DNA from: Bdellovibrio bacteriovorus HD100 | GTDB taxonomy: Bacteria > Bdellovibrionota > Bdellovibrionia > Bdellovibrionales > Bdellovibrionaceae | Direction of reading: 5' to 3' | Assembly (NCBI RefSeq): GCF_000196175.1 | Contig: NC_005363.1 | Coordinates: 1,674,001-1,738,000, forward strand | Length of the DNA stretch: 64,000 bases | Shown here: one piece after another, positions 59,417-62,838 of the stretch | Layout: every line of letters begins with the position of its first letter | Numbering within the stretch: position 1 is the stretch's first letter | The notes under the pieces: generated by a model | Told to the model about the DNA's origin: nothing | The model's database searches: none | Seen by the model: only the letters and a program-made list of their open reading frames with translations | Made by a program: the position numbers and the translations under genes

Positions 59417-61294
59417 TTAGTGTTTGGTACTATCCGCAGCCTGCACCATCAGTTCCGCGATCTGCTGAGAGAACTTCACTGGGTCGGGAAGGTTGGAGCC
59501 TTCGGTCAGCAAAGCCTGGGCATAAAGGATTTCCGCCCATTTGGTTTGCTGCTCTGGAGAAGCCTTCAGCATCTTTTCAAACACCGGGTGGTTCGGGTTG
59601 ATCTCCATGATGCGTTTGACCTGCTGACCCGCGTACTCTTTCCCCATTTGCGCCATCAGTTTTTGCATGTGTGCGGAAGGGTCGGCAGAAGAAGCCACCA
59701 GACACGCTGGGGTGTTCGTTAAGCGGTCTGAAAGAACCACGTCTTTCACATCGCTTTCCAAAGTCTTCTTCATGGATTCCAATACAGGTTTCAAAGTGAC
59801 TTCGGCCTGTTTCTTTTCCTGTTCCTTTTGCTGTTTTTCTTCAGCCGTGTCCAGGTCCAGACCTTCACGCATGATGGATTGCAGTTTTTTGCCTTTGAAT
59901 TCACTCAAAGCATCGACAACCCATTCGTCCACCGGATCCACCAGCAACAGAACCTCAAAGCCTTTTTCTTTCAGCTTCTCAAGGTACGGGCTGTTTGAAA
60001 CCTGGGAAAGGGAATCGCCCGTAATATAGTAAATATCCTTCTGGGTTTCTTTCATGCGCGCCACGTATTCATCCATAGTCGTCATCTTGTCAGAGGACGT
60101 GGAGTGGAACAGCAACAGATCCTGAAGCTTTTCTTTGTTAGCCGCGTCGGACGGCAGACCTTCTTTCAAAGTCGCACCAAATTCAGTCCAGAAGTCTTCA
60201 TAAGCTGAGCGCTCTTTGGTCAAAAGATCTTTCAAAGTGGAAAGAGCCTTATTGGTCACGTTCTTGCGGATCTGCGTGACCTGACGGTCCTGCTGAAGCA
60301 ATTCACGGGATACGTTCAAAGACAAATCACTGCTGTCCACCAGGCCTTTTACAAAACGCAGGTAAGGAGGCAGAAGGTCTTTGCAGTCAGCCATGATAAA
60401 CACACGCTTGATGTAAAGGCTCAGGCCGTATTCCATGTCGCGCATGTTGTAGTTCCATGGCTTTTTGCCAGGAACATAAAGAAGGGCATTGAATTCCATC
60501 GTGCCTTCCGCGCGATAGTGAACCGTGCGCAGAGGCTCGTTCCAGTCATGGGTCAAATGCTGATAGAATTCCTTGTATTCTTCTTTGGTCACTTCGGATG
60601 GGGATTTCAACCAAAGAGCTTTTTGCGAGTTCAGTGTTTCTTCTTCCGTTTCGCCCATCATCTTGATTGGGTGAGCGATAAAGTCAGAATACTTTTTCAC
60701 CAGGGATTTCAGGACCCACTTGTCGGTGAAATTCTGGACTTCGTCTTCTTCCTTGAAGTCCTTCATGTGCAAAGTGATGGTGGTGCCAGTGCCTTCCGGA
60801 CGGGGAACGCTGTCCAGTGAATATGTTCCATCCCCCATGGATTCCCACACCGTGCCGTCATTGCTGCCAGCTTTTTGTGTGTGCAGGGTCACGCGGTCCG
60901 CGACCATAAAAGCAGAATAGAAGCCCACACCGAATTGACCGATCAGTTCCGGTTTGGTCTTCATTTCCGCATTCATCTGCATGAAGGCTTTGGCGCCGGA
61001 ACGGGCGATGGTGCCGATGAACTCGACAACTTCTTCCTGGGTCATGCCGATACCGTTATCGATGATCTTCAGGGTCTTGGTCTCAGAGTTTGGCTCCAGG
61101 CGGATCGCCGGCTGCCAGTTTTCCGGAAGCAAAGACGGGTGAGTCAAAGAGTTGAATTTCAGTTTGTCGATCGCATCAGACGCGTTGGACAAAAGTTCGC
61201 GCAAAAAGATCTCTTTGTGCGAATAAAGGGAGTGGATCACGATATCCAGAAGTTGTTTGATTTCAGCGTTAAAGTTTTGAACCTGCTTGGCCAT
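59417..61294 (-). CDS. htpG: Chaperone HtpG (Hsp90)
   Basis: 625 aa, close to E. coli (624). The ATPase N-domain motifs are present: LRELLSNASDAIDKL, IDNGIGMTQEEV, GQFGVGFYSAFMVADRV and GTTITLHM, followed by the middle-domain LYVPGKKPWNYNMRD and GLVDSSDLSLNVSRELLQQ. It is an ATP-dependent chaperone for late folding of stress-sensitive proteins. AAGGAG precedes the ATG, and a sigma32-like promoter lies just upstream. Confidence 0.97.
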   Translation of the reverse strand: MAKQVQNFNAEIKQLLDIVIHSLYSHKEIFLRELLSNASDAIDKLKFNSLTHPSLLPENWQPAIRLEPNSETKTLKIIDNGIGMTQEEVVEFIGTIARSGAKAFMQMNAEMKTKPELIGQFGVGFYSAFMVADRVTLHTQKAGSNDGTVWESMGDGTYSLDSVPRPEGTGTTITLHMKDFKEEDEVQNFTDKWVLKSLVKKYSDFIAHPIKMMGETEEETLNSQKALWLKSPSEVTKEEYKEFYQHLTHDWNEPLRTVHYRAEGTMEFNALLYVPGKKPWNYNMRDMEYGLSLYIKRVFIMADCKDLLPPYLRFVKGLVDSSDLSLNVSRELLQQDRQVTQIRKNVTNKALSTLKDLLTKERSAYEDFWTEFGATLKEGLPSDAANKEKLQDLLLFHSTSSDKMTTMDEYVARMKETQKDIYYITGDSLSQVSNSPYLEKLKEKGFEVLLLVDPVDEWVVDALSEFKGKKLQSIMREGLDLDTAEEKQQKEQEKKQAEVTLKPVLESMKKTLESDVKDVVLSDRLTNTPACLVASSADPSAHMQKLMAQMGKEYAGQQVKRIMEINPNHPVFEKMLKASPEQQTKWAEILYAQALLTEGSNLPDPVKFSQQIAELMVQAADSTKH

Positions 61295-61315
61295 GGTTTC
61301 TCCTTAATGCAGTCA

Positions 61316-61344
61316 ATTTGGGGCCGGGGGCCCGGTTTGGCAAG
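61316..61344 (-). promoter_or_regulatory. Candidate sigma32 heat-shock promoter of htpG
   Basis: On the minus strand CTTGCC (61344-61339) is separated by 15 bp from CCCCAAAT (61323-61316), a good match to the sigma32 consensus CTTGAA-N13-15-CCCCATNT. The predicted start site is about 14 bp before the htpG ATG. Confidence 0.6.
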
Positions 61345-61425
61345 GTCAGGTGCCGGTATTTCTTATGGGAAATCTAAAAAAGTTCGATTGGTCCGGGCAG
61401 GAAGCTTTGTGTTATTGTCATTTTT

Positions 61426-61488
61426 ATGAGCTTTGACCTGTCTTTCAGCCTCATTCTTGTTTTCGCCACCCCGGCGACCACCCCGTAG
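61426..61488 (+). CDS. Threonine-codon leader peptide upstream of the ThrRS-like gene
   Basis: A 20-codon frame begins at ATG 61426 and ends at TAG 61486-61488, with the last seven codons reading ATPATTP: three ACC (Thr) and two CCG (Pro). A hydrophobic stretch (LSFSLILVF) precedes them. It lies 99 bp before the synthetase-like gene and just ahead of a GC-rich hairpin. This is the layout of a ribosome-mediated attenuator; Thr-tRNA shortage would stall ribosomes at the ACC codons. It is too short for a family match. Confidence 0.6.
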   Translation: MSFDLSFSLILVFATPATTP

Positions 61489-61504
61489 GGGTCTATAATC
61501 TATT

Positions 61505-61536
61505 GGCCGCCCAACTGGCGGCCCCGACGCATTTTT
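61505..61536 (+). promoter_or_regulatory. Candidate attenuator hairpin of the ThrRS-like gene
   Basis: GGCCGCC (61505-61511) pairs perfectly with GGCGGCC (61517-61523) around CAACT, followed after eight bases by TTTTT. The 5' arm can also pair with GGCGACC inside the leader's Thr codons (6 of 7 bases), an alternative fold. A third hairpin TCCGC-TGAA-GCGGA at 61561-61574 touches the ribosome binding site. Which fold turns the gene on cannot be decided by reading. Confidence 0.5.
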
Positions 61537-61587
61537 CCATATTTTTATAAAATTTTAAGATCCGCTGAAGCGGAGAGAGATTTATTT

Positions 61588-62838
61588 ATGTCTTCCTTTA
61601 AAAAAGGACAGGCCGGGTCCTGTCATGTCCAAAAAGATCATCGTGAGTTGAATCAGTATCTTTCGTATTTCCATAGTGATGAATCCATCGGCGCAGGGCT
61701 GCCATTGTGGCTTCCTGCCGGGGTGGTGATTCGTGATGAGCTTGAAAAGCTGGCGCGGGAATTGGAATTCCTGGCCGGGTACCAGCGTGTGGTCAGCCCG
61801 CATCTGGCCAAAGAGGATCTTTATCATCAGTCCGGGCATCTGCCTTACTACGAAGATTCCATGTATCCATCGATGGATCTTGAAAACGTGCGCTATCGTT
61901 TAAGGCCCATGTGCTGCCCGCATCATCACAAAATTTTTTCAGCCAAATTGCACAGCTATCGCGAACTGCCGTTGCGGTTGGCGGAATACGGTCAGGTCTA
62001 TCGTTACGAGGGCTCCGGGGCGCTTTCCGGGCTGATGCGGGTCCGCGGTCTTTGTCAGAACGATGCGCATCTTTACGTGCGACAAAATCAGGTGAAAGTC
62101 GAGATTCACAAGGTGCTTGAGATGTACCAGAAGGCTTACCGGATCTTGGGGATCTCCGATTACCGCCTGCGCCTGTCCCGCGGTGTGGAGGCTGAAGAGG
62201 CTTCGCAAAAGTATGTGGCGAATCCGCTGTGGGATTGGGCCGAGGGTATCTTGCGCGAGGTTTTGGTGGAAAGTGGTCTGCCATTTTTTGAAGCCCCTGG
62301 TGAAGCGGCCTTTTATGGTCCCAAGATTGATGTGCAAATCATGTCCGTGCATGGCAAAGAGGAAAGTGCCTCCACTGTGCAAGTGGACTTTATCAGTGCT
62401 GAGCGCTTTGATCTGTCGTTCATAAATGAAGAGGGTCATAAAGAGCGACCGGTGATTTTGCACCGGGCACCGCTGGGATCACATGAACGTATGGTGGCTT
62501 TGCTGATTGAGCTATATCAAGGAGCCTTCCCGTTGTGGTTGTCGCCGGAACAGGTGCGCATTGTGCCTTTGGCAGACCGGCACCAGGAAGCGGCTGAAGG
62601 TCTTCGTTTGCTGTTACATAATTCTTTCATCCGGGTCCGTGTCGATGATCGCGCAGAATCCCTGTCGCGCAAAATGGCCGAATGCTGGCAGGAGAAAGTG
62701 CATTCAGTTGTGGTGATCGGCGACAAGGAACTGCAGGCCGGGAAGTTCAGTCTGCAGCGAAGAGGTGCCTCTGCGCAAAGTGTGTCGGCGCAGGAACTGC
62801 TGTCTTTGCTTCAGAATGAAATACGCGACCGGAAGTAA
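61588..62838 (+). CDS. Threonyl-tRNA synthetase-like protein lacking TGS and editing domains
   Basis: 416 aa, against about 640 for full ThrRS. It aligns with the catalytic and anticodon-binding domains only. Zinc ligands are seen as Cys in RPMCCPHHHKIF, His in QNDAHLYV and His in ILHRAPLGSHERM. Motif 2 is LMRVRGLCQNDAH and motif 3 is HRAPLGSHERMVALLIE; FYGPKIDVQI is also conserved. The N-terminal TGS and the editing domain that clears Ser-tRNA(Thr) are missing, and the start follows directly from the ribosome binding site, so this is not a mere start error. It may be a second, stress-induced ThrRS or act with a separate editing protein. Confidence 0.85.
   Translation: MSSFKKGQAGSCHVQKDHRELNQYLSYFHSDESIGAGLPLWLPAGVVIRDELEKLARELEFLAGYQRVVSPHLAKEDLYHQSGHLPYYEDSMYPSMDLENVRYRLRPMCCPHHHKIFSAKLHSYRELPLRLAEYGQVYRYEGSGALSGLMRVRGLCQNDAHLYVRQNQVKVEIHKVLEMYQKAYRILGISDYRLRLSRGVEAEEASQKYVANPLWDWAEGILREVLVESGLPFFEAPGEAAFYGPKIDVQIMSVHGKEESASTVQVDFISAERFDLSFINEEGHKERPVILHRAPLGSHERMVALLIELYQGAFPLWLSPEQVRIVPLADRHQEAAEGLRLLLHNSFIRVRVDDRAESLSRKMAECWQEKVHSVVVIGDKELQAGKFSLQRRGASAQSVSAQELLSLLQNEIRDRK

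Follow-up and report, generated by a model that had tools for sequence, protein, structure and literature searches.

Ribosome-mediated attenuators that work through leader peptides are known from the his, trp and thr operons and from pheST of Escherichia coli. Like these, the Bdellovibrio locus described here has cognate codons near the end of a leader open reading frame (ORF), a 1:2-type hairpin across them, a pause-like sequence after the hairpin and a target in the pathway of the same amino acid. Unlike them, its target is a threonyl-tRNA synthetase (ThrRS) that lacks the editing domain, its start adjoins a -10 box, no intrinsic terminator lies by the second hairpin, and no common antiterminator pairing was found.

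Second copies of ThrRS under special control have been described elsewhere. In Bacillus subtilis, thrZ is a second ThrRS gene behind several T-boxes (PMC2494555). This gene is induced by starvation. The Bdellovibrio locus likewise places a spare ThrRS behind what would be a sensor of tRNA-Thr charging; it differs from thrZ in having a translated leader instead of a T-box and an enzyme without the editing domain. The Anabaena T2 ThrRS is induced by zinc shortage via Zur (PMC4787780). Like the present enzyme, T2 is a second ThrRS poor in proofreading, and it is made only under stress, as we propose for the present one. Unlike T2, which is controlled by Zur repression at the promoter and keeps a damaged editing domain, the enzyme studied here follows a leader peptide and has lost that domain altogether. 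Two further systems share single features with the locus. The trpL mRNA of Sinorhizobium meliloti has the AUG of its leader peptide at the very 5' end (PMC7298713), as we infer here; trpL differs in being an attenuator of Trp biosynthesis with a known start. Leader peptides have also been proposed, by prediction, before hisS paralogues of bacilli (PMC2965389); those concern His in another lineage and were found via intrinsic terminators. An earlier note on this locus knew of no described Thr leader before a truncated ThrRS in Bdellovibrio, and the open-access literature (on leaders of thrS and on leader peptides and ThrRS of Bdellovibrio; titles and starts of abstracts) yielded no description of such a system.

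A second threonyl-tRNA synthetase without an editing domain

The window analysed is a 64,000-nt stretch of the Bdellovibrio bacteriovorus HD100 chromosome, and all positions refer to it. The features of the locus, all on the forward strand, are the following.

61362–61378, forward strand: conserved block CTTATGG-N5-CTAAA upstream of the promoter (by eye, alignment of 26 loci)
61388–61416, forward strand: putative promoter, -35 TTGGTC, 17-nt spacer, -10 GTTATT (from sequence)
61426–61488, forward strand: leader ORF of 20 codons, MSFDLSFSLILVFATPATTP and a stop, with Thr at codons 15, 18 and 19
61480–61492, forward strand: hairpin P1, ACCCC-GTA-GGGGT (from folding; present in 38/38 loci)
61493–61504, forward strand: P1–P2 spacer (in relatives, a U-tract ending in U-G about 12–14 nt after P1)
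61505–61523, forward strand: hairpin P2, a perfect 7-bp stem, GGCCGCC-CAACT-GGCGGCC (structure conserved, sequence not)
61561–61574, forward strand: hairpin P3, adjoining the ribosome binding site (from folding; in a subset of relatives)
61575–61579, forward strand: ribosome binding site GAGAG of the ThrRS gene (from sequence)
61588–62838, forward strand: editing-less second ThrRS, 416 aa, class II core and anticodon domain

The gene at 61588–62838, which the earlier note had called a truncated ThrRS-like gene, is indeed a ThrRS (TIGR00418 score 431 bits, cutoff 384), and a Pfam search of its product found the core and anticodon domains only, with no TGS and no editing domain. A full-length thrS is encoded elsewhere in the same genome as a 664-aa open frame (matched at G000:C1:1548310), and the two proteins are 36% identical across the shared part.

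Alignment to 6l2p indicates that the equivalents of C334, R363, H385, Y462, G463, K465, H511 and R520 (E. coli numbering) are kept, and the zinc ligands and catalytic residues are invariant in 13/13 aligned proteins of the same family (family 1, below). In the E. coli enzyme C334, H385 and H511 are the zinc ligands. Because these three and R363, K465 and R520 are kept and invariant, we infer that the core should be active. An Anabaena T2 mutant without the N domains has no editing activity (PMC4787780), and by analogy the editing-less ThrRS may be expected to form Ser-tRNA-Thr. A change of Gly463 to Ser renders ObaO immune to obafluorin (PMC11252418). We rejected an antibiotic-immune ThrRS of the ObaO type, since the equivalent residue, G244, is unchanged in 13/13 proteins; other routes to resistance are not excluded.

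The leader accompanies editing-less ThrRS genes throughout the phylum

Editing-less ThrRS genes were gathered from 368 genomes of the phylum, 39 in all. The window protein was searched against 59 relatives, and the protein of one relative against nested sets of 140 (order), 143 (class) and 368 (phylum) genomes. These searches returned 27 genes of family 1; the upstream DNA of one (G113) is cut off by a contig edge, and the other 26 carry the leader. Two more family-1 genes (G095, G082) came from a motif search, and a search for a second group, family 2, which the earlier note had not seen, gave ten editing-less genes, all ten with the leader. Thus 38/38 editing-less loci with upstream DNA have an ORF near a -10-like box that ends in Thr-Thr(-Pro) and runs into P1. 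A DNA search with the leader region, by comparison, matched only the window's own genome and two close ones (3/59).

Protein searches alone had detected 26 of the family-1 genes with a leader and four of family 2; the motif ACCACCCCNNNGGGGT gave the first sight of G095, G082 and the other six family-2 genes. The motif has 28 matches in 28 of the 368 genomes, and the reversed pattern, used as a control, has 22, so the count is unremarkable on its own and the evidence lies in where the matches fall. Seventeen stand before family-1 and six before family-2 genes (23 editing-less genes); the rest comprise one orphan leader (G200) and four matches inside open frames of 137–492 codons, which look like chance. 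The four family-2 genes that the motif does not match (G247, G182, G179, G180) nonetheless carry the leader.

An automatic rule (hairpin, in-frame start 39–69 nt upstream, no stop, at least two Thr codons in the last seven) detected a leader before 36/36 editing-less and 0/58 full-length ThrRS genes. The rule was written after the leaders of both families had been seen, and as a control it is blind only for the 58 full-length genes. It left out G021 and G082, whose frames are broken or cut, and the full-length locus L131, which has no upstream DNA. The 0/58 control, the Thr-codon bias described below and the four family-2 genes missed by the motif hold regardless of start choice, of the reversed-pattern control, of the genomes without a visible second ThrRS and of the rule not being blind for family 2.

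A full-length ThrRS was not found at the search cut-off in G013, G091, G092, G095 and G096, all of which are 57–88% complete; G013 gave one ThrRS match in the search with the window protein. The Hydrogenedentota relatives L036–L042, met in a contig scan, were excluded as they have full-length ThrRS.

The leader frame, its Thr codons and its promoter

The earlier note had described a 20-codon frame with three ACC codons among its last six sense codons. This held: ACC occupies codons 15, 18 and 19 of the ORF at 61426–61488. The frame is also conserved in relatives, where it spans 16–26 codons and ends in Thr-Thr(-Pro). The start codon lies 45 nt 5' of P1 in 21/36 leaders and 42–63 nt in the remainder, and the peptide has 17 residues in 16/36. 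Some of these starts involve judgement. Among the 21 at 45 nt, the start is the sole ATG 36–69 nt upstream in 12; the others were picked by hand among several or are GTG codons. Overall, 11/36 leaders have zero or more than one ATG 36–69 nt upstream, and starts were hand-picked where several were possible. A comparable ATG occurs in the other two frames in 1/52 cases (family 1).

Thr codons are not freely substituted. Thr-Thr is found at P1 in 33/36 leaders; G179 and G151 have a single Thr among the two P1-proximal codons, and in G046 the pair is Gly-Thr. Additional Thr codons cluster beside the conserved pair, with 39/180 in the five codons preceding it vs 0/324 further off (36 leaders; Fisher p 2e-19, in which independence is overstated as the loci are related). 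In family 1 these include ACA, ACT and ACG, and therefore the Thr bias does not merely reflect the hairpin arm. Five consecutive Thr codons are present in G148 and G152. The leader stop is the second codon past the P1 Thr codon in 29/36 leaders and lies 4–5 codons past it in 7/36, and the last Thr is followed by Pro in 30/36, by Arg in 3, by Leu in 2 and by His in 1. From this conservation we infer that the leader is translated.

Family-1 leaders are composed of 13% G, 37% T and 28% C. Phe, Ile, Leu and Ser make up about 61% of the 324 residues of the non-Thr part (36 loci; for example 61426–61470 in the window), the sequence of which is unconserved. A requirement for T/C-rich, G-poor RNA, or else for a hydrophobic peptide, may explain this richness.

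In the window the -10 box ends 9 nt ahead of the leader ATG, and in relatives a -10-like hexamer ends 6–11 nt ahead of the start codon (by eye); the earlier note had missed this promoter-adjacent start. In the alignments of relatives, also judged by eye, no Shine-Dalgarno sequence fits between the hexamer and the start. Because the -10-like box adjoins the start codon and leaves no room for a Shine-Dalgarno sequence, we infer that the leader mRNA is leaderless or nearly so; the transcription start is unmapped. A scan with a strict promoter consensus listed no promoter at the leader, and a published start-site map of HD100 contains 140 attack-phase promoters (PMC3627812).

Further upstream, the block CTTATGG-N5-CTAAA occurs mainly in the window's own order, and in some relatives it is near an inverted repeat, TTATGG...CCATAA. 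The copy at 61362–61378 is the sole perfect match among seven in the window with at most two mismatches. It could be an operator or an A-rich, UP-like element; its role is unknown.

Hairpins from the end of the leader frame to the synthetase gene

P1 is built from the last Thr codon. Its 5' arm (61480–61484) consists of this codon (61480–61482) and the CC of the Pro codon, its 3' arm occupies 61488–61492, and the leader stop TAG (61486–61488) reaches from the loop into the 3' arm by one base. In relatives it has the general form ACCC(C)/(G)GGGT and varies little, with one double change from C-G to G-C in G029, and its loops are unconserved (GTA, ATA, TCA, TTA, GTTA, TTC and others). After P1, U is found at +12 in 31/36 loci, and UG occurs 10–17 nt downstream in 27/36 vs 10.6 +/- 2.6 in shuffles. 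In the his pause, the polymerase halts downstream of a hairpin, Y being at -1 and G at +1 (PMC9291695); by analogy, the U-tract ending in U-G resembles a hairpin-stabilised RNA polymerase pause.

P2 starts 10–16 nt after P1 in 25/26 family-1 loci. Its sequence varies freely, yet the stem stays paired, and each position of the stem shows several types of pair (26 family-1 loci). Pairs were tabulated from individually folded stems, as a MAFFT alignment of the P1–P2 region misaligned P2, and no tree-based covariation statistic was computed. The first 50 nt past P1 fold more stably than their shuffles do (Stouffer -11.0, 36 loci; upstream control -0.3, 35 loci); such sums overstate independence, the loci being related. 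P2 is absent or weak in G268, G179, G180 and G097. Since a U-run directly after P2 (at least 4 U in 7 nt) is present in only 2/26 family-1 loci, the window not among them, an intrinsic terminator at P2 was rejected for 24/26 loci. The leader would act like an attenuator without belonging to the type that uses an intrinsic terminator. With the P1 5' arm masked, no common antiterminator that would break P2 was found in the 26 loci, and alternative pairings of the P1 3' arm vary by locus, being strong in G035 and G148 and absent in others. A loosely conserved stretch, CACATTT/CGCATTTTT, follows P2 by about 8–14 nt in many family-1 loci (window 61524–61535; by eye). It is perhaps the true termination or pause site; its role is unknown.

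P3 is not general, as z lies above -0.1 in 9/26 loci. Over the same 26 loci, the stretch of up to 60 nt before the synthetase start folds better than shuffles (Stouffer -4.0), and four loci (the window, G023, G042 and G155) have predicted pairs that extend to the ribosome site. The whole 175-nt leader of the window also folds better than shuffles (z -2.2), and the distance from P1 to the gene ranges from 89 to 171 nt. The sensing half of the leader is classical-looking and the output half is not. Finally, cmscan of window positions 61250–61700 at E up to 10 gave five sub-threshold matches, none of them a T-box or a Thr leader family, and with no fitting match a T-box or other Rfam family was rejected for the window's leader.

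The earlier note had reported both a perfect 7-bp GC hairpin and a hairpin at the ribosome binding site; these held and correspond to P2 and P3. Its proposal that the 5' arm of the 7-bp hairpin pairs with the Thr codons held in part: the arm can pair with GGCGACC in the window with one mismatch, and the pairing is not kept in relatives (by eye). The hairpin that does overlap a Thr codon is P1, at the stop codon, which had been missed. On the compensatory stem changes that the note wanted sought, P1 shows the double change in G029, and P2 keeps its pairing despite its changing sequence.

A proposed mechanism of attenuation

The most probable explanation is ribosome-mediated attenuation, in which the leader would sense charged tRNA-Thr and so control an emergency ThrRS without proofreading. 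The frame, the Thr bias, P1, P2, their spacing, the pause-like U-tract and the association with editing-less ThrRS are shown; stalling, direction and output are inferred.

In this model, transcription would begin at the leader AUG or a few bases away, and a ribosome following RNA polymerase would translate the leader. When Thr-tRNA is plentiful, the ribosome would pass ACC-ACC to the adjoining stop and leave; P1 could then form at the polymerase exit, the polymerase would pause at the U-tract, and P2 would form next. Expression of the synthetase would be low, presumably through early termination, perhaps Rho-dependent, or through poor translation. Rho is considered because the leader is G-poor. 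When Thr-tRNA is uncharged, the ribosome would stall on the Thr codons; as the last of these is the P1 5' arm, P1 would be blocked and the synthetase made. Induction on shortage of Thr-tRNA is inferred because P1 is built from a Thr codon and from the role of the protein. Against the attenuation reading, there is no measured transcript, stall or response. The earlier note's suggestion of an attenuator sensing charged tRNA-Thr is thus supported, and transcription termination as its output remains unproven.

If the model is true, predatory and related bacteria have a leader-peptide switch for a spare aminoacyl-tRNA synthetase. Regulation would be tied to fidelity, with all editing-less copies that have upstream DNA under the switch and none of the 58 full-length ones. 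The conserved leader suggests that the low-fidelity ThrRS is switched on only when charged Thr-tRNA is short, the response to charging being inferred, and with this system one can ask directly whether error-prone synthetases are rationed by bacteria. It also hints at a non-classical off-step in attenuation.

Alternative explanations

The alternative that survives best keeps the same Thr sensor and gives it a translational output: stalling would rearrange the RNA and free the ribosome site of the synthetase gene, with a logic like that of ermC. This is possible but less probable. P2 is no intrinsic terminator in 24/26 loci, and the folding before the gene start, with pairs reaching the ribosome site in the window and three relatives, speaks for it. 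However, P3 is not general, and the variable distance from P1 to the gene also counts against it.

A TnaC-like arrest of the nascent chain appears unlikely; in this case free threonine or a drug, and not uncharged tRNA, would make Thr-Thr-Pro stall at the stop. In its favour, Pro follows the last Thr in 30/36 leaders, with the stop directly after it in most. Pro before the stop is typical of arrest peptides. However, the rest of the peptide is unconserved beyond its Phe/Ile/Leu/Ser-rich make-up, Arg, Leu or His replaces Pro in six leaders, P1 itself favours CC at this place, and the Thr codons vary in number and place.

Autorepression in the style of E. coli thrS, where the enzyme recognises hairpins resembling tRNA in the leader of its own mRNA, is very unlikely. 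Hairpins do precede the ThrRS gene here; however, the loops of P1 and P2 are unconserved and do not keep a Thr anticodon, for which reason tRNA mimicry was rejected. Nor does this model predict a conserved Thr leader frame, and no Rfam family fits the window's leader.

That only the hairpin is conserved and the frame is an accident of its C-rich arm, as ACC-CC is codon and stem arm at once, is all but excluded by the enrichment of Thr codons outside the stem, ACA, ACT and ACG included, and by the conserved start position and frame.

Two families of editing-less ThrRS

A quick tree (SH-aLRT support only) of 60 ThrRS cores (24 of family 1, 10 of family 2 and 26 full-length ones chosen by hand) contains a branch with support 100 that separates family 1 and 7 full-length proteins from family 2 and 19 full-length proteins. 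The full-length ThrRS of the window genome groups on the family-2 side. Family 1 as a single clade has a support of only 54, and forcing both editing-less families into one clade was rejected (p-AU 0.0005). The simplest account has at least two losses of the editing part, with the same leader standing ahead of both families. Neither reuse of the leader by gene replacement nor its evolving twice is favoured.

A bolder reading, offered tentatively and with the balance slightly against it, is that in this phylum a ThrRS free of proofreading has come under one and the same near-leaderless, Thr-sensing leader, which works without an intrinsic terminator, on at least two occasions. It would be a fail-safe that accepts Ser-at-Thr mistranslation only when Thr-tRNA charging collapses, through starvation or poisoning of the housekeeping enzyme.

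Three loci depart from the usual arrangement. The orphan leader L100 (G200), MMKEIRHSFIHASTTTP with a stop and P1, is followed by an ORF of 39 codons, and the stretch examined contains no synthetase. In G021 (L007), the leader and the start of the ThrRS are present and the reading frame is lost near the N-terminus, so the gene looks decayed. In G015 (L014, L053), the editing-less ThrRS gene is split: a piece matching residues 1–218, with an intact leader, and a piece matching residues 206–415 lie about 0.39 Mb from each other, as if the gene had been cut by a rearrangement.
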